The translations under genes and the position numbers were made by a program. A DNA stretch of 64,000 nt. Origin: Rhabdaerophilum sp. SD176. GTDB lineage: Bacteria > Pseudomonadota > Alphaproteobacteria > Rhizobiales > Beijerinckiaceae. Location of the stretch: positions 62,001 to 126,000 of the forward strand of contig NZ_JARJNS010000001.1 of the NCBI RefSeq assembly GCF_030143245.1, written 5' to 3'. The notes under the pieces were generated by a model. It searched no databases. It was not told the origin of the DNA and was given only the letters and a program-made list of their open reading frames with translations. Below, piece after piece: positions 5,326-35,206 of the stretch. Every line of letters starts with the position of its first letter. Within the stretch, counting starts at the first letter, position 1.

Positions 5326-6306
5326 ATGATTTCTCGTCGTATGTTCAAGGGTGTCGCGCTGGCGGCCCTCATGTCACTGGGCGCCGGTGCAGCTGCGCAG
5401 GCGCAGACGCTTCGTTCGACCGACATCCATCCGGATGGCTACCCGACGGTCGAGGCCGTCAAGTTCATGGGCAAACTGCTCGAACAGCGCAGCAACGGCC
5501 GCATCAAGATCAACGTTTTCCACTCGGCCCAGCTCGGCCAGGAAAAAGACACGATCGAGCAGACCCGCTTCGGCGTCATCGACATGAACCGCATCAACAT
5601 GGCGCCGTTCAACAACCTCATCCCGGCGACCAATGTGCCGTCGCTGCCCTTCATCTTCCGCTCGGTCGACCATATGCGGAAGGTCATGGACGGCCCGATC
5701 GGCGACAGCATCCTGAAGGAATTCGAGAAGCATGACCTTGTCGGTCTGGCATTCTACGATTCCGGCGCCCGCTCGTTCTACAATTCCAAGCGCCCGATCA
5801 CGAAGCCGGACGACATGAAAGGCCTGAAGATCCGCGTCCAGCAATCGGACATGTTCATCAGCCTCGTCTCGGCGCTCGGCGCCAACGCCACGCCGATGAA
5901 TTTCGGCGAGGTCTATTCCGGCCTGCAGACCGGCCTGATCGACGGCGCCGAGAACAACTGGCCGTCCTATGAATCGACCAAGCATTTCGAGGTGTCGAAA
6001 TTCTACTCGATGACCGAACATTCGCTGTCGCCGGAAGTGCTGGTCATGTCGAAGAAGAGCTTCGACAAGCTCTCCAAGGAAGATCAGGCGCTGGTCAAGG
6101 CGGCCGCGAAGGAATCCGTTGCCGAGATGCGCAAGCTCTGGGATGCGCGTGAAAAGGCCTCGGAAGCCAAGGTCAAGGCCGGCGGCGCGGTGGTCAACAG
6201 CGTCGAGAAGCAGCCCTTCATCGACGCGATGAAGCCTGTCTACGAGAAGTTCGTAAAGGATCAGGCCCTGAAGGATCTCGTCGCCAAGATTCAGGCCGTG
6301 AAGTAA
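5326..6306 (+). CDS. dctP: TRAP transporter substrate-binding protein
   Basis: This 326-residue DctP-family periplasmic protein carries a signal peptide ([18 protein letters not shown], cleavage near AQA-Q). Family features follow: an [16 protein letters not shown] start, the [13 protein letters not shown] segment, the [14 protein letters not shown] segment with the carboxylate-binding Arg, and [26 protein letters not shown] lies nine bases before the ATG. It delivers an organic acid to DctQM, and the surrounding genes point to a uronate or related sugar acid. A terminator-like hairpin directly follows, which usually gives the binding protein a higher level than the membrane subunits. Confidence 0.95.
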
Positions 6307-6370: not shown

Positions 6371-6865
6371 ATGCACGCGCATTTGCGAGCACTGTCGCGT
6401 TGGCTGGCCAACGCTTCCATCATCATTTCAGCGGTTGGCCTCGTTGGCATGACGCTGGCCGTCGCCTGGCAGGTCTTCGGCCGCTATGTTCTGAACAACA
6501 GCCCGACCTGGACCGAGCCTTTGTCCATCCAGTTGATGGGCTGGTTCATCCTGCTCGGCTCCGCCGTCGGCATCCGCGAGAATTACCATCTTGGCTTTGA
6601 TGTTCTTCGCGTCGTCTCACCGCGTCCGATCCAGCGCATCATGGCCGCGATTTCGATGATCGCCGTCATTGGCTTCGGTACCGCGATGGCCGTCTTCGGC
6701 CTCGATCTGGTTATCGGAACCTGGACCGCGACCCTGCCGGTCCTTGGCTGGCCCGGGGGCGTGGATTTCATGCCGCTTGTCGCCGGCGGCATCCTGATCG
6801 CGTTCTTCGCGCTCGAACAGCTCTGGCTCGTCATTACCGGGAACGATGAAGGGATGGCATCATGA
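6371..6865 (+). CDS. dctQ: TRAP transporter small permease subunit
   Basis: This 164-residue membrane protein has four predicted helices and the DctQ hallmark segments VAWQVFGRYVLNNSPTWTEP and IREN(Y)HLGFDVL. It forms the inner-membrane translocator with DctM. Its stop overlaps the dctM start by four bases (ATGA), indicating translational coupling. It begins 64 bp after dctP, past the hairpin. Confidence 0.95.
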   Translation: MHAHLRALSRWLANASIIISAVGLVGMTLAVAWQVFGRYVLNNSPTWTEPLSIQLMGWFILLGSAVGIRENYHLGFDVLRVVSPRPIQRIMAAISMIAVIGFGTAMAVFGLDLVIGTWTATLPVLGWPGGVDFMPLVAGGILIAFFALEQLWLVITGNDEGMAS

Positions 6866-27472: not shown

Positions 27473-28168
27473 ATGCTGAGCGTGGAAAATCTCGACCTGC
27501 ATTACGGCGCGGCCCAGGCGCTCCGGTCGGTGTCGGTGACGGCCGAGCTTGGCAAGGTCACCTGCGTGATCGGCCGCAACGGCGTCGGCAAGACCTCGCT
27601 CTGCCGGGCGATTACCGGCCAGCAGAAGGGCTCGCGCGGCAAGATCCTGTTCGATGGCGTCGATATCGGCTCCCTGCCGCCTTCGGAGCGGGCACGCGCC
27701 GGCATCGGCTTCGTTCCGCAGGGCCGCGAGATTTTCCCGCTCCTGACGGTCGAGGAAAACCTGAAGACCGGCTTCGCCCCGCTCAAGGTCGGCGACCGCT
27801 TCATCCCGGCGGAAATCTACGACCTGTTCCCCGTGCTGAAATCCATGCTCGGCCGGCGCGGCGGCGACCTGTCCGGCGGCCAGCAGCAGCAGCTTGCCAT
27901 CGGCCGCGCCTTGGTGATGCGGCCGCGCCTCCTCATCCTCGACGAGCCGACCGAGGGCATCCAGCCCTCGATCATCAAGGATATCGGCCGCGCCATCACC
28001 CATCTCGCCGGCCTCGGCACCATGGCCATCGTGCTGGTCGAGCAATATTTCGACTTCGCCCGGGAGCTTGCCGACAGCTTCATTCTGATGGAACGTGGCG
28101 AGGTCGTCATGGCGGGGGATGCGAAACGGATGGCCGAAGATGATGTCCGGCAACGCCTTGCGCTCTGA
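27473..28168 (+). CDS. urtE: Urea ABC transporter, ATP-binding protein UrtE
   Basis: This 231-residue LivF-like ATPase has Walker A GRNGVGKTS, GFVPQGREIFPLLTVEENL, signature DLSGGQQQQLAIGRAL, Walker B LLILDEPTEGIQPSIIKDIG and an H-loop Glu-Gln variant (VLVEQYFDFA) normal for LivF-type proteins. It completes the urea transporter. Its 3' end overlaps the start of ureD by 26 bases, linking transporter and urease genes in one transcript. Confidence 0.96.
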   Translation: MLSVENLDLHYGAAQALRSVSVTAELGKVTCVIGRNGVGKTSLCRAITGQQKGSRGKILFDGVDIGSLPPSERARAGIGFVPQGREIFPLLTVEENLKTGFAPLKVGDRFIPAEIYDLFPVLKSMLGRRGGDLSGGQQQQLAIGRALVMRPRLLILDEPTEGIQPSIIKDIGRAITHLAGLGTMAIVLVEQYFDFARELADSFILMERGEVVMAGDAKRMAEDDVRQRLAL

Positions 28169-29006
28169 CGGTGACGCGCTGCGCCTGCCGCCGGCCGTCC
28201 GGGTCGAGGCCCGGCTCCGGCTTGGTCTTGCGCATCTCGATGGCCAGTCCCGGCTGACGGAGCGCCACGAGGCCGGTGCCTTCCGCTTCCGCTTCCCGCG
28301 CGCTCATGGCCGTTCGCCCGAAGCCGTGCTGGTCAATGTCGCCGGAGGTCTTGCCGGCGGCGATTCCGTCTCGATCGACCTGAGGCTCGGCCCGGGCGCC
28401 GAACTGACGCTCTCAAGTGCGACGGCCGAGCGGATCTACCGCTCCGACGGCTCGGCCACACGGCTGAGCAACCGGCTGGACATCGGCCCGGATGCCCGCA
28501 TGCTCTGGCTGCCGCAGGAAACCATCCTGTTCGAGCAGGCGGCGCTGGAACGGCATTTCGAGATCGATCTCGCCGCAACCGGCCAGCTGGTTCTGGGCGA
28601 GATGCTCTATTTCGGCCGTGTCGCCTCGGGCGAAACCTTCACGCGCGGCGCGATCCGTGACCGTTGGCGCCTGCGCCGGGCGGGCCGGCTGGCTCTTGCC
28701 GAGGATCTCCGGCTCGATCTCGCCGGTGGCGGGGCCCTGCGCGATCCGGTCGCCCTCGGCGAGCATGTCGCCCTTGGCACGCTCCTTCTTGCCTTGCCCG
28801 ATCCACAGGACCTTCTGGAAGCGATCCGCGGCAACGTGGCCGAGGAACCCGGCCTCGAAATCGGCACAACCCTTGTCGATGGCCTTGTCTTGCTGCGCGC
28901 CGCCGGCAAGGATGCTGCCCTGTTGCGCCGCCAGCTTCTGCGGGTGGCGCGTTTCGTGCTCGGGCGGATCGGCATGCCCTATCCGCGCGCTTTCACCAAT
29001 GAATGA
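28143..29006 (+). CDS. ureD: Urease accessory protein UreD
   Basis: This protein of about 287 residues contains the UreD segments EAVLVNVAGGLAGGDSVSID, SATAERIYRS, WLPQETILFEQAALERHFEID, GEMLYFGRVASGETF and the C-terminal LGRIGMPYPRAF. UreD is the scaffold that binds apo-urease and recruits UreF and UreG for nickel delivery. The start is placed at 28143 (28140 is equally possible), inside the end of urtE. An 8-bp direct repeat (TGAGACCT, 29004-29011 and 29022-29029) spans the short gap to ureA. Confidence 0.93.
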   Translation: MSGNALRSDGDALRLPPAVRVEARLRLGLAHLDGQSRLTERHEAGAFRFRFPRAHGRSPEAVLVNVAGGLAGGDSVSIDLRLGPGAELTLSSATAERIYRSDGSATRLSNRLDIGPDARMLWLPQETILFEQAALERHFEIDLAATGQLVLGEMLYFGRVASGETFTRGAIRDRWRLRRAGRLALAEDLRLDLAGGGALRDPVALGEHVALGTLLLALPDPQDLLEAIRGNVAEEPGLEIGTTLVDGLVLLRAAGKDAALLRRQLLRVARFVLGRIGMPYPRAFTNE

Positions 29007-29033: not shown

Positions 29034-29336
29034 ATGAATCTGACGCCGCGCGAAAAGGACAAGCTGCTGATTGCGATGGCCGCCATCGTCGCCCGCCGCC
29101 GGCTGGAGCGGGGCGTGAAGCTCAACCACCCCGAATGCATCGCGCTGATCTCCGATTTCGTGATGGAGGGCGCCCGCGATGGCCGTTCGGTGGCGGAGCT
29201 GATGGATGCCGCCGCGAAAATCCTCACCCGCGATCAGGTCATGCCCGGCATTGCCGAGATGATCCACGATATCCAGGTCGAGGCCACGTTCCCGGACGGG
29301 ACCAAGCTCGTCACTGTCCATGATCCGATACGTTAG
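29034..29336 (+). CDS. ureA: Urease gamma subunit
   Basis: This 100-residue protein matches the full length and sequence of Ure[21 protein letters not shown], then [29 protein letters not shown] and the C-terminal [18 protein letters not shown]. Together with UreB and UreC it forms the cytoplasmic nickel enzyme that splits urea to ammonia and carbamate. It starts 27 bp after ureD, and hupE follows rather than ureB. Confidence 0.97.
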
Positions 29337-29369: not shown

Positions 29370-29966
29370 ATGACCAGGATATCATCGCTTTTCCGCCCCA
29401 ACGCATTCTCGCGGCTCATGCTCGCCACCGGCCTGACGCTGCTGGCCGCGCCCGCCTTCGCCCATGGCGGGGAAGGTGGAGGCTTTGCCGCCGGCTTCCT
29501 GCACCCGGTTGGCGGGGCAGACCATGTCCTCGCCATGCTGGCTGTCGGCCTATGGGCGGCCTTCCGGGGTGGCAAGGCCATTCTCGGCTGGCCGGTGGCC
29601 TTCGTGGCGGCGATGCTCGGCGGCTTCGCCCTGGCACCGTTCTTCGGCGCGCTGCCCAACCTCGAGGCCATGATCACCTCGACCGTCATCCTGCTCGGCG
29701 GGGCGCTGGCCCTCGGCTTCCGGGCGCCCGTCGTGGCGGGCGCGGCGCTGATCGCGCTGGCGGGTGCAGCCCATGGCTATGCCCATGGCCTTGAAATGCA
29801 GGGCAATGCGCTGGCCTTCGGCGGCGGTTTCGCCTTGGCCACAGCGGCTTTGCATGGCGCTGGCATAGCGATCGGCCTCGGCCTGACGCGGCTGGCCTCC
29901 TTGCGGCTCCTGCAGGCAGCTGGCGGCCTCGTGGCGGCGGCGGGCCTTGTTCTGGCGATGGCGTGA
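29370..29966 (+). CDS. hupE: HupE/UreJ family nickel permease-like protein
   Basis: This 198-residue protein has a signal-like N-terminus (cleavage near AFAHG) and about six membrane helices. The family metal motif is visible as [15 protein letters not shown], with the later HGYAHGLEM His cluster. HupE/UreJ proteins import nickel or cobalt across the inner membrane, here for urease. Its place between ureA and ureB is a known arrangement in alphaproteobacterial urease operons. Confidence 0.9.
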
Positions 29967-29973
29967 GGCAGCG

Positions 29974-30279
29974 ATGATCCCCGGTGAAATCTTCCCCAAG
30001 GATGGCGACATCGCCCTCAACGAGGGCCGCGAAACGCTGACGCTTACAGTCTCCAATACCGGCAACCGGCCGATCCAGGTCGGCAGCCATTACCATTTCT
30101 TCGAGACCAATAACGGCCTCCGCTTCGACCGCGACAAGGCCCGCGGCTTCCGGCTGGATATTCCCGCCGGCACCGCCGTCCGCTTCGAGCCGGGCCAGAC
30201 CCGCGAGGTCCGTCTCGTCGCCATTGCCGGCAAGCGCGAGGTGTATGGGTTTCAGCAGAAGGTGATGGGGAAGGTGTGA
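29974..30279 (+). CDS. ureB: Urease beta subunit
   Basis: This 101-residue protein starts [20 protein letters not shown] and contains [40 protein letters not shown] and [11 protein letters not shown], the full UreB sequence pattern. GTGAGG precedes the ATG at 29974. Normally ureC follows directly; here a foreign-looking GIY-YIG gene starts one base after its stop. Confidence 0.96.
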
Positions 30280-30280
30280 G

Positions 30281-30610
30281 ATGTCAGGTCGTTGGAAAGT
30301 AATCTATAAAATTACTTGGCCCAACGGAAAGATATATATTGGATCAGACCTAACCGACTCCATCGGCTACTTCGGTAGCGTTTCAAATTCAGTAGTTGAA
30401 AAAGACTTCCCAACAAGGGAATCACGAAAACGCATTCAAATAATGAAAGAGATCATTTTTGAATCTGACCAAATGGAAGATCATGAAATCCGAGTGAAGG
30501 AATTCGAATTCATAGAGCTCTTTGGCTCGAACAATCCAGCGAAGGGATACAATCTTCGCCCCCGCTACAGGGAGCCTTCCGCTCAAGATTCCGCACATCA
30601 AGGTGATTAA
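30281..30610 (+). CDS. GIY-YIG nuclease-like protein inserted between ureB and ureC
   Basis: This 109-residue protein has the GIY-YIG core KVIYKITWPNGKIYIGSDLT followed by YFGS, a middle helical part, and a C-terminal EFEFIELFGSNNPAKGYNLR with the conserved Glu and the GYN(L) motif. It resembles a family of small stand-alone GIY-YIG proteins, and I see no DNA-binding extension. By my count the gene is about 42% GC (the first 260 bases about 39%), far below its neighbours, with AT-rich codons (ATA, AAA, ATT). It begins one base after the ureB stop and its TAA directly abuts the ureC ATG, so its last codons supply the ureC ribosome site (AAGGTG). This points to recent transfer into the operon. 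Catalytic activity is not proven. Confidence 0.85.
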   Translation: MSGRWKVIYKITWPNGKIYIGSDLTDSIGYFGSVSNSVVEKDFPTRESRKRIQIMKEIIFESDQMEDHEIRVKEFEFIELFGSNNPAKGYNLRPRYREPSAQDSAHQGD

Positions 30611-32317
30611 ATGGCTTCTATCCCCCGCACCCTTTACGCTGACATGTTCGGCCCGACCACGGGCGACCGGATCCGGCTAGCCGATACCGATCTCATCATC
30701 GAGGTGGAGAAGGATTTCACCACCTATGGCGAGGAGGTGAAGTTTGGCGGCGGCAAGGTCATCCGCGACGGGATGGGCCAGAGCCAGGTGACGCGCGCCG
30801 CCGGTGCGGTCGATACGGTGATCACCAATGCAGTCATCCTCGACCATTGGGGCATCGTGAAAGCTGATATCGGCCTGAAGGACGGGCTGATCGCCGCCAT
30901 CGGCAAGGCCGGCAACCCGGATATCCAGCCCGGCGTGGACATCATCATCGGCCCGGGCACCGAGATCATTGCCGGCGAGGGCAAGATCATCACGGCCGGC
31001 GCCTTCGACACGCATATCCATTTCATCTGCCCGCAGCAGATCGAGGAAGCGCTGATGGCCGGCATCACCTCGATGCTCGGTGGCGGCACCGGCCCGGCCC
31101 ATGGCACCCTCGCCACCACCTGCACGCCCGGCCCGTGGCATATCGCCCGGATGATCGAGGCGGCGGATGCCTTCCCGATGAATCTCGGCTTTGCCGGCAA
31201 GGGCAATGCCTCGCTGCCGGCGGCTCTGGAGGAGCAGGTGCTGGGCGGCGCCTGTGCGCTCAAGTTGCACGAGGATTGGGGCACCACCCCGGCCGCCATC
31301 GACAATTGCCTCAGCGTCGCCGATGCGATGGACATCCAGGTGATGATCCATACGGATACGCTGAACGAGAGCGGCTTCGTCGAGGATACGGTGGCTGCCT
31401 TCAAGGGCCGCACCATCCATGCCTTCCATACCGAGGGGGCAGGGGGCGGCCATGCGCCCGACATCATGAAGATTGCCGGGCTGCCGAATGTGCTGCCCTC
31501 GTCCACCAACCCGACGCGGCCCTTCACGGTGAACACGATCGACGAGCATCTCGACATGCTCATGGTCTGCCACCATCTCGATCCCTCGATTGCCGAGGAT
31601 CTCGCCTTTGCCGAGAGCCGCATCCGCAAGGAAACCATCGCGGCCGAGGATATCCTGCATGATATCGGCGCGCTCTCGATGATGTCCTCCGACAGCCAGG
31701 CCATGGGCCGGATCGGTGAAGTGATCATCCGGACCTGGCAGACAGCGGACAAGATGAGGAAGCAGCGCGGCAGCCTGCTTGGCGATGGCGTGAACGACAA
31801 TATCCGCGCCAAGCGCTATGTCGCGAAATACACGATCAACCCGGCCATCGCGCATGGCGTCTCGCGCCATATCGGCTCGGTGGAGAAGGGCAAGCTGGCC
31901 GATCTGGTGATCTGGTCACCGGCGTTCTTCGGCGTGAAGCCGGAAATGATCCTCAAGGGCGGCATCATTGCGGCCGCGCCGATGGGCGATCCGAATGCCT
32001 CCATCCCCACGCCGCAGCCCATGCATTACCGCTATATGTTCGGCGCCTATGGCAAGGCCCGCACCGGCTCCAGCCTGACCTTCGTCTCGCAGGCCGCGCT
32101 GGATGCAGGCCTGCAGGCCAAGCTCGGTGTCGCACGCCGCATGGTGGCGGTGGAGAATGTCCGCTCCGGCATCGGCAAGGCCAGCATGATCCATAACGGC
32201 GCCACGCCAACAATCGATATCGATCCCGAAACCTACCATGTCCGGGCCGATGGCGAGCTGCTGGTCTGCGAACCGGCAACGGTCTTGCCGATGGCGCAGC
32301 GTTACTTCCTCTTCTGA
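30611..32317 (+). CDS. ureC: Urease alpha subunit (catalytic)
   Basis: This 568-residue protein is full length. Nickel ligands and catalytic groups are in place: HIHFICPQQ (about 136-138), the carbamylated Lys in ALKLHEDWG (about 218), the histidine of [21 protein letters not shown], the flap His in MVCHHLDPS (about 320) and the Asp near [14 protein letters not shown]. No lesion is visible despite the foreign gene just upstream. AAGGTG before the ATG lies within that gene's 3' end. Confidence 0.98.
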
Positions 32318-32391: not shown

Positions 32392-33270
32392 ATGTCCAGA
32401 ATGACCTTCATGCCCGTGTTCGACCGCCAGGGCCGTTTCTCTTCGCTGAAGGCGGCGGTGCTTATCGCCGTGATCCTTCCCGGCCTCTGGATCAGCTGGC
32501 GGCTGGCGGCCGGGCAGATGGGCGCCAAGCCCATTACCGCCGCTCTGCACGAAACGGGGCTGTGGTCGGTCCGCCTTCTGCTGGTGACCCTGCTGATCAC
32601 CCCGCTCCGGGCCATGACCGGGCAGAACCGGCTGCTGCAGGTCCGCCGCATGCTCGGCGTTTCCGCTTTGGCCTACGCACTGATCCATCTCGGGCTCTAC
32701 GTGTTCGACCTGAAATTCGACCTCGTGAAGGTGGCGAGCGAGATCGTGCTGCGCTTTTACCTCACGATCGGCTTCGCGGCCCTGATGGCTATGGCGGCCA
32801 TGGGCGCGACCTCGTTTGACAGCAGCATCCGCAAACTCGGCGCTGAACGCTGGAACCGGTTGCATAGCCTGATCTATCCGCTGGCCCTGCTGACGCTCTG
32901 GCATGGCGCGCTGCAGTCCAAGATCGATGCCAGCGAGCATATTGTCATGACAGGTCTTTTCCTTGCGCTGATCGGAGCCCGGTTCCTGCGCCGGCAGGGC
33001 AAGCTGACGCCGCTCTGGCTGCTGGGACTCGCCATCGCAACGGCCCTTGCGACAAGCCTTGTCGAATTTGGCTGGTATGCGCTGGCGACCGGCTTTCCGG
33101 CCGGGCGCGTCTTCGCAGCCAATCTCTCATGGGATCTCGCACCAAGGCCCGCGCTGATCGCCGGCCTGCTCGCGCTGTCGCTCCCGCTCACGGCATGGGC
33201 AACACGATGGTTTTCCTCTGTACCCAAGCCGGGCTATACCGGAGCGAGACAACGAGGAGTGACAGGATGA
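32392..33270 (+). CDS. MsrQ/YedZ-like heme-binding ferric-reductase-type membrane protein
   Basis: This protein of about 292 residues has an initial helix, a six-helix ferric-reductase-like core ([62 protein letters not shown] with heme-ligand His residues) and about two more helices at the C-terminus. This matches MsrQ, the b-heme quinol partner of the periplasmic methionine-sulfoxide reductase MsrP. No msrP is in the window. It sits between ureC and ureE, and its stop overlaps the ureE start (ATGA), so it belongs to the operon. The start at 32392 is the best ATG; 32401 is possible. Confidence 0.8.
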
Positions 33271-33884
33271 TCCGCGCCGAAACCGTCATCGCCCGGGGGG
33301 ACTGGACCGGCACGCCGGCCGATACCGTGGTGCTTGACTATGATGACCGCCATCGCCGACGGATCACCATGGAAGGTGTTGGCGGCCTGTCCTTCCTGCT
33401 CGATCTGCCCGAGGCGATTGCCCTGCGCTCCGGCGACGCGATCCGGCTGGCCGATGGCCGCCTTGTCGAGGTGGTCGGCGCACCCGAGCCACTGGCGGAG
33501 ATCCGTGCCGAGAATGCCGAACATCTGCTCCGGCTGGCCTGGCACCTCGGCAACCGCCATCTGCCGGTCCAGATCGCCAATGGCAAGCTGCGCATCCGCC
33601 GCGACCATGTGATCGAGGCGATGGTCGAGGGCCTCGGCGGCAAGGTCCGCTCGATCGAGGCGGCCTTCGATCCGGAGGGCGGTGCCTATCTGCAGGCCAA
33701 CCGTGCGCATCACGATCACGGCCATCACGGCCATGGCCATCACCATCACGACCATGGCCATCAAGACCATGGCCACGATCACGGCCACACGCACGCCCAT
33801 GGCGAGGGCTGCGGTTGCGGACATGACCACCATCATGATCACCATGAGCATGCCCATCATGGCCATGCCCACAAGCATGACTGA
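33267..33884 (+). CDS. ureE: Urease nickel metallochaperone UreE with long His-rich tail
   Basis: This 205-residue protein has an N-terminal peptide-binding domain (about 1-75), a C-terminal metal domain ([21 protein letters not shown], including the conserved interface His) and a tail from about residue 149. The tail holds roughly 30 histidines plus a GCGCG motif. Such tails bind several Ni ions and act as a store. GAGGAG precedes the ATG at 33267. It overlaps msrQ by four bases and ureF by eight. Confidence 0.95.
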
Positions 33885-34588: not shown

Positions 34589-35206
34589 ATGCATGGTCCG
34601 CTTCGCGTCGGGATCGGGGGCCCCGTCGGCTCCGGCAAAACCACATTGACCGCCGCCCTTTGCGCGCAATTGCGCCATCGCTGCGATCTCGCGGTCATCA
34701 CGAACGACATCTATACTCGCGAGGATGCTGAAATCCTTTCCCGCCTCCAGGCCCTGCCGAGGGAACGGATCATGGGCGTCGAGACCGGCGGCTGCCCGCA
34801 TACGGCCATCCGCGAGGATTGCTCCATCAACCTTCACGCCATTGCCGAAATGCGGAAGCGCTTCCCGGCGCTCGAGTTGATCCTGATCGAATCCGGCGGC
34901 GACAATCTCGCCGCGACCTTCTCGCCTGATCTGGCTGATCTGACCCTCTATGTGATCGATGTCGCGCAGGGCGAGAAGATCCCCCGGAAGGGCGGACCCG
35001 GCATCACGCGGTCGGATATGCTGGTCATCAACAAGACAGACCTTGCGCCGCATGTTGGCGCGGATCTCGACGTTATGGCCCGCGATGCGGCGTCCCAGCG
35101 GGGAGTACGGCCCTTCGTCTTTACCAATCTCAAGACCGGGGACGGCGTTGCCGAGATCATCCGCTTCATCGAACAGCGCGGCGGTCTCGCGCTGAAAGCT
35201 GCCTGA
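34589..35206 (+). CDS. ureG: Urease accessory GTPase UreG
   Basis: This 205-residue SIMIBI-class GTPase has P-loop [11 protein letters not shown] (about 11-21), [11 protein letters not shown], the nickel CPH-type motif in [37 protein letters not shown] and [13 protein letters not shown]. It couples GTP hydrolysis to nickel insertion. It is the last gene of the urt-ure unit; a 117-bp gap without a clear terminator follows. Confidence 0.97.

Follow-up and report, generated by a model that had tools for sequence, protein, structure and literature searches.

The urease operon and its inserted gene

A urease operon is encoded on the plus strand of the window, by which we mean the complete stretch of 64,000 nucleotides that was analysed (Table 1). 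Between ureB and ureC an additional open reading frame is found which runs from ATG to TAA over 109 codons. Only a single base, a G, separates it from the ureB TGA, and its own TAA (30608-30610) directly abuts the ureC ATG. A preliminary description had reported a complete, low-GC reading frame of 109 residues, located one base past the ureB stop and directly adjoining the ureC start, and both its borders and its composition are confirmed. The names ureA, ureD, ureE and ureG are in part our assumption, and the product of the gene between ureC and ureE we take to be MsrQ/YedZ-like.

Table 1. Features of the urease operon in the window.
Feature	Position	Strand	Basis
ureD (part taken as query; the ORF starts further upstream)	28152..29006	+	named by position
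ureA, urease gamma subunit	29034..29336	+	named by position
hupE/ureJ, between ureA and ureB; variable across the genus	29370..29966	+	PF04955, E 4.1e-41
ureB, urease beta subunit; stop codon forms the left border of the slot	29974..30279	+	ATG at 29974
Inserted gene, solo GIY-YIG-like protein, 109 aa	30281..30610	+	ORF, 67-sequence alignment, structure model, viral fold matches
AAGGTG, Shine-Dalgarno-like run for ureC within the 3' end of the inserted gene	30600..30605	+	read from the sequence
ureC, urease alpha subunit; start codon (ATG) forms the right border of the slot	30611..32317	+	PF00449, E 9.4e-57; PF01979, E 1.5e-78
MsrQ/YedZ-like membrane protein gene, between ureC and ureE	32395..33270	+	ORF, genus comparison
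ureE	33267..33884	+	named by position
ureG	34589..35206	+	named by position

In each of the 13 operons of the genus that were compared, ureC and ureE are separated by the MsrQ-like gene, and a further ORF which precedes it varies in presence. Another gene, for a protein of about 158 aa, is missing from the window but occurs in three near sisters and, as judged by eye, in G002; it is located between ureA and hupE (L256-L258) or between ureA and ureB (L263).

The inserted gene has a GC content of 42.1%, compared to 65.5% in the 6 kb flanks, and a GC3 of 0.42, compared to 0.83 for ureB and 0.84 for ureC. A foreign origin cannot be concluded from composition alone: 78 of 80 relatives have a lower GC content than their own flanks, so that a low GC content is partly a trait of this nuclease family. 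According to the GC trend of the family, 51% would be expected in such a host, and the gene from the window falls about 1.8 standard deviations below this trend. It is a single-copy gene in its own genome. We consider the reading frame to be more than a chance ORF because it shares 59% identity over 93 aa with a relative from another family and because 16 residues are invariant among 67 aligned sequences. The AAGGTG run close to its end is a putative ribosome site for ureC, which the inserted gene would thus donate.

A divergent and bare GIY-YIG domain

GIY-YIG nucleases are characterised by two tyrosine motifs, a catalytic glutamate and a late asparagine, as known from I-TevI. In the alignment of 67 relatives, Y9, T12, P14-Y19, G21, D23, Y30, G32, S33, D42, E74 and I78 are invariant and N91 is kept in at least 90% of the sequences, so that the tyrosines (Y9, Y19), the glutamate (E74) and, nearly without exception, the asparagine (N91) of the hallmark pattern are present throughout the family. 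A catalytic arginine is usual in the first helix of these nucleases; the alignment has no invariant arginine column, and K17 is invariant and K10 nearly so.

An AlphaFold2 model of the protein (mean pLDDT 89.5, pTM 0.79) has the order of elements E6-12, E18-23, H36-40, H46-49, E55-62 and H67-81, and this matches the beta-beta-alpha-beta-alpha order of the GIY-YIG fold. When the model was searched with Foldseek, 30 viral BFVD models were retrieved at E 1e-3 or better. Of the 19 that are named, 17 are GIY-YIG, intron, homing or putative endonucleases, and an intron-associated protein (E 1.2e-5) and a Seg-like protein (E 6.8e-4) are among the matches. The same search found no fold match in the PDB at E 0.001, and no nuclease relative was obtained among PDB chains by sequence or profile search. 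The window protein has no match to any Pfam family, including PF01541, which is matched by 11 of the 67 family members at E 0.1 or better (best value 6.1e-4). A PHROG family of homing endonucleases is matched weakly (E 7.6e-5). A T4 region used as a GIY-YIG yardstick has no gene that is labelled as such.

The elements of the nuclease fold span residues 6-81 of the 109 aa, and the last block of the tail has a mean pLDDT of 57. A separate DNA-binding domain was not found beside the nuclease domain, and the protein has about the size of a catalytic domain alone. From the motif residues and the predicted fold we call the window protein a divergent, bare GIY-YIG domain. Nuclease activity is likely rather than firmly predicted, because the usual catalytic arginine has no invariant counterpart.

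A variable slot between ureB and ureC

ureB occurs in 14 of the 17 genomes of the genus and, with ureB of G011 being at a contig edge, 13 junctions including that of the window could be read. Six are empty, with 1-2 nt between the genes, and seven are filled, with ureB and ureC being intact. The fillings are of five unrelated kinds, each a single gene or a gene pair, and the GIY-YIG gene is found in the window alone. A 99-aa protein is encoded in G013 and G015 (with a diverged homolog of 43% identity in G016), a 113-aa protein in G012, a protein of about 129 aa in G001 and, as judged by eye, an AbrB/PIN-type pair in G003. G012, G013 and G015, which are among the nearest sisters and in which UreC is 98-99% identical to that of the window (G011 was not comparable there), hold two other kinds of filling. 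The ureB-ureC junction is thus a variable insertion slot, with unrelated genes in close relatives and nothing in others.

The 99-aa filling (at the ureB-ureC junctions of L256, L258 and L262), which carries a WDPIG motif, is in turn a small gene of scattered occurrence, with homologs in 23 of 298 genomes of the family at E 1e-4, and no Pfam family is matched. Initial assignments of the 99-aa filling to a known DUF and of the 113-aa filling to acyl carriers were not borne out by Pfam.

The window region and G013 are syntenic over about 195 kb (190 kb aligned) and differ in ten segments of at least 150 nt. Three of these fall in the urease operon, and one other segment also differs in gene content. 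The ureB-ureC junction is the only place where two unrelated low-GC single genes have been swapped flush with the same neighbours. The flanks within ureB and ureC match those of the sisters. No raised SNP density was found among the sisters in ureB or ureC beside the slot; a long foreign ureB/ureC tract imported together with the gene was rejected on this ground. An old insertion that has been lost in the sisters is also unlikely, given the 1-2-nt junctions in six congeners and the unrelated fillings in six others.

Outside the genus, 100 stretches from the same family were taken from the matches listed (198 of 298 genomes match), and the ureC start was reached in 88 of them and not in the other 12. 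In 28 of the 88 the junction is filled (gap of at least 190 nt), and in 60 the gap is 150 nt or less. By eye, a PIN-type gene was recognised in 16 of the 28 and a DUF1003-like protein in four, with one of each having been checked with Pfam; toxin-antitoxin pairs are among the fillings of the slot. At the ureA-ureB junction, which served as control, gaps of more than 100 nt occur in 10 of 114 cases. The difference has a Fisher p of 4.5e-5, which should be taken as a guide only, given slightly different cut-offs and the relatedness of the genomes. At the level of the order, gaps above 190 nt were found in 15 of 28 ureB-ureC junctions, where the fillings are varied, and in 9 of 29 ureA-ureB junctions. 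The whole urease operon is loose, and ureB-ureC is more open than ureA-ureB without being the only such slot of the operon. We regard it as a docking place for travelling single genes because relatives leave it empty or have it filled otherwise.

Distribution of the nuclease gene and its other sites

No homolog of the inserted gene occurs in the 16 other genomes of the genus. Among 99 relatives, 97 lack any homolog and the other two carry it between cas genes (L014 and L037 are on these same contigs); among 384 other genomes sampled from the class, three have one. Most relatives have urease without the nuclease gene. As a test of mobility, the preliminary description had proposed to look for clean empty junctions and a scattered occurrence, and both were found (six empty junctions of 13, and absence from all 16 congeners). 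The gene is not shared by all relatives, shows no amelioration in composition and has retained its motif residues. Mobility and recent arrival of the nuclease gene in the window are well supported.

A scan of genome contigs from a collection of 84,980 species yielded 341 relatives. The best 80 of these 341 span many bacterial phyla and also archaea, e.g. Nitrosarchaeum and Methanosarcina. A tree of 67 rows places the window protein in a clade of 15 rows (SH-aLRT 92), and the 11 of these with an organism title are all from alphaproteobacteria. The window branch is long (1.28), and 39 of the 64 inner branches of the tree are open. A phage or plasmid vehicle was considered and dropped, with only 3 phage and 6 plasmid records at E 1e-5 and 42 viral contigs that are mostly distant.

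The preliminary description had also suggested a search for relatives at other operon junctions, and such relatives turned up at cas3-cas5, cas8c-cas7, cas7-cas4 and hisH-hisA. Neighbours were scanned at 23 of the 80 loci, a non-random choice, and 10 of these 23 are in or beside cas operons, mostly of type I-C (L014, L037, L039, L043, L052, L060, L063, L090, L087 and L036). Seven alphaproteobacterial loci of the family are at the cas3-cas5 junction. The gene is located between cas8c and cas7 in L090, between cas7 and cas4 in L087, and before cas3 in L036. On a plasmid of Rhizobium sp. Q54 (L011, 3998-4274), an unannotated relative that is broken over several frames lies between cas3 and cas5. 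When 385 genomes were searched, 15 cas5c loci from 13 alphaproteobacterial genomes had no GIY-YIG match at the cas3-cas5 junction, and a role as a fixed part of type I-C CRISPR systems was therefore rejected. In L040, the gene is inserted between hisH (27 nt away) and hisA (13 nt away), a junction of 25 nt or less in 18 of the 23 genomes that have both genes together (27 searched). With simple ORF picking, both neighbours were obtained for 72 loci; in 34 the gene is co-directional with its neighbours on both sides, and in 7 it is within 60 nt of both. Members of one nuclease clade sit at several different sites. A gene for a DUF4357 protein is found directly 3' of the GIY-YIG gene in L020, L022 and L051.

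Scars and flanking repeats

Among the best 80 of the 341 relatives, the closest is from an uncultured Pleomorphomonas (L013), which belongs to another family; it is the one that is 59% identical over 93 aa. Its GTG start overlaps the ureB TGA, so that it occupies the same ureB stop codon as the gene in the window. About 50 nt past the nuclease stop, a second ureB 3' end begins, with 92 nt at 98.9% identity. The last ten nt of this second end differ, and ureC follows some 50 nt further on. The downstream copy ends in codons that are frequent in other ureB genes of the family, and it is the upstream copy that deviates. A foreign origin of the new C-terminus of ureB is putative, with the two copies being 98.9% identical. 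This duplication rests on one genome; G735 was rejected as a second witness, as the two share 100% identity over 3,300 nt and G735 was taken to be the same genome. In the Pleomorphomonas family, the nuclease gene occurs in one of 20 genomes, and this is the L013 genome itself.

Extra pieces of ureB were sought in 143 stretches and found in two, L013 and L215 (G528). In the latter, ureB is followed by a VapBC pair, then by a piece corresponding to ureB residues 32-99 at 51% identity, and then by ureC. This diverged 3' fragment (at about 915-1103 of the oriented stretch) directly precedes ureC. As it follows VapBC without a nuclease gene, scars of this type are not confined to the nuclease. In the window, no repeat above the level of shuffled sequence was detected, and no displaced ureB copy was found behind the inserted gene.

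Among 90 loci, 7 have direct repeats on either side of the nuclease gene, compared to 8 of 742 control places (p 4e-4, with the control places within one locus not being independent). When L098, where the repeat is a tandem copy of the gene itself, is disregarded, 6 of 89 loci remain (p 0.002). The other 83 of the 90 tested loci have no flanking direct repeats. In L068, direct copies of 194 nt (95%; 5721-5914 and 6437-6630) flank the GIY-YIG gene. Both begin with an apparent minus-strand stop codon and perhaps represent a duplicated gene 3' end. The tandem GIY-YIG gene pair of L098 (1648-1971 and 2066-2365) is on a viral contig.

How the gene may have entered the operon

As the probable explanation we propose that the inserted ORF is a recently acquired solo GIY-YIG gene, a hitchhiking cargo that came into a pre-existing slot, the ureB-ureC junction of urease operons in this order, by recombination anchored in the conserved urease genes. 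Incoming DNA carrying ureB, or the end of ureB, together with the cargo would recombine homologously within ureB of the resident operon. If the second crossover is homologous and in ureC, no scar would be left, as at the window; if it is illegitimate, the 3' end of ureB would be retained as a second, displaced copy, as in Pleomorphomonas and in one genome with VapBC. Selection would retain only insertions with both urease subunits translated, and the cargo would provide the ribosome site of ureC. The nuclease may enhance its own transfer by cutting, although cutting is unnecessary to explain the placement. Apparent direct traces of anchored recombination are few (two ureB-end scars in 143 stretches) and lie outside the window, and the SNP density beside the slot shows no sign of a long imported tract. 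Furthermore, neither the recurrence of the nuclease family at this stop codon in another family nor the enrichment of direct repeats around it would be predicted for a purely passive cargo.

An alternative is a free-standing homing endonuclease. It would recognise the 3' end of ureB or the junction with ureC and cut empty alleles, whereupon repair would copy the gene in. The GIY-YIG fold, the motif residues and the PHROG match are consistent with it, as are the empty and filled alleles within one genus, the occurrence of the L013 relative, from another family, at this very ureB stop codon, and a second recurrent site at cas3-cas5 with seven alphaproteobacterial loci and the disrupted L011. However, unrelated genes occupy the same slot, even in sisters with 98-99% identity, and about 100 aa leave no room for a separate DNA-binding domain. 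With respect to a single cognate site the picture is mixed: the L013 relative shares the ureB stop codon, and other homologs are at other sites. Members of one clade are at several different sites, 97 of 99 relatives have no homolog and the other two have it elsewhere, and one of 20 genomes in the Pleomorphomonas family has it. We thus consider homing unlikely here. The preliminary description had weighed a selected landing site of a homing endonuclease against cargo acquired by chance. What stands is that the gene is a foreign, mobile and intact solo GIY-YIG gene; the proposal that ureB-ureC is the nuclease's own target is not supported as it stands, given the unrelated fillings in the sisters and in the order and a protein of about the size of the catalytic domain, although the L013 relative speaks for targeting.

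A bacterial counterpart of the mitochondrial mobile ORFs, in which the nuclease gene carries or duplicates the 3' end of the preceding gene and lands behind many genes, would account directly for the order in L013 (a ureB whose last codons are changed, then the nuclease gene, a second 3' end of ureB and ureC), for the copies around the gene in L068 and for the excess of direct repeats (7 of 90, or 6 of 89 without L098, vs 8 of 742). The same anatomy, with a GIY-YIG gene at atp9, is described for Glomus mtDNA (PMC3630166). Nevertheless, there is no duplication at the window and none in 83 of the 90 tested loci; the duplication of L013 rests on one genome and its copies are 98.9% identical, and a comparable scar is found behind a VapBC pair without a nuclease. 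This explanation appears rather improbable, more so than homing. Least of all do we expect a domesticated accessory gene that is kept for urease expression or defence. The 10 of 23 scanned loci (of 80, non-randomly chosen) in or beside cas operons and the toxin-antitoxin pairs in the urease slot would fit a defence role, but one of 17 genomes of the genus has the gene, most relatives have urease without it, and it is absent from cas3-cas5 in all 15 cas5c loci of 13 alphaproteobacterial genomes.

On a wider scale, it is a tentative and rather doubtful idea that bacteria and archaea harbour minimal mobile elements of this type. Each would consist of one GIY-YIG gene of about 300 bp that lands directly behind the stop codon of a gene within a core operon (urease, histidine or type I-C CRISPR), with the resident genes left undisrupted. 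In some cases, the end of the preceding gene would be duplicated, as in mitochondrial mobile ORFs. ureB-ureC would be one recurrent site, shared with other small genes.

Relation to known systems

Compact operons are considered to be entered by single genes frequently, but the event is seldom caught. Here, sister species with near-identical urease subunits display an empty junction and several fillings next to each other, and apparent scars are kept in two further genomes, so that the mechanism of scarless insertion into operons can be tested at a single locus. Should the nuclease be involved, it would represent a minimal mobile element that reaches metabolic as well as CRISPR operons. In the literature that was searched, which included few subscription journals, neither a preference of small solo GIY-YIG proteins for operon junctions nor the ureB-ureC slot is described. 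Extra ORFs between the urease structural genes ureA, ureB and ureC of Rhizobium meliloti were reportedly found by Miksch et al. in 1994; to our knowledge, a turnover of fillings between sister species and a nuclease filling have not been described for them.

Small solo proteins recorded as "GIY-YIG nuclease family protein", e.g. on Vibrio alfacsensis pSEA2 and Tistrella mobilis pTM1, have a similar size and motif pattern. Six plasmid records show 36.7-63.8% identity over the matched parts, and such proteins are scattered over phyla. Free-standing and intron-associated GIY-YIG homing endonucleases of phages resemble the window protein in fold and in being encoded by a single ORF. They differ in that the window protein has no additional DNA-binding part and its site is common to unrelated cargo.

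In the mitochondrial mobile ORFs of Glomus and Allomyces, an endonuclease ORF lies behind a host gene together with a displaced second copy of the 3' end (PMC3630166). The relative in L013 has a like anatomy with a putative foreign ureB end, whereas the window copy has no duplication. For Vibrio T6SS clusters, module displacement by homology-facilitated illegitimate recombination has been proposed (PMC5361080). There, an upstream anchor is conserved, a new module comes in and the old 3' part is pushed downstream, which is the likeness to the urease loci; in the latter, the anchor is a subunit of a metabolic enzyme and the cargo is unrelated to it.
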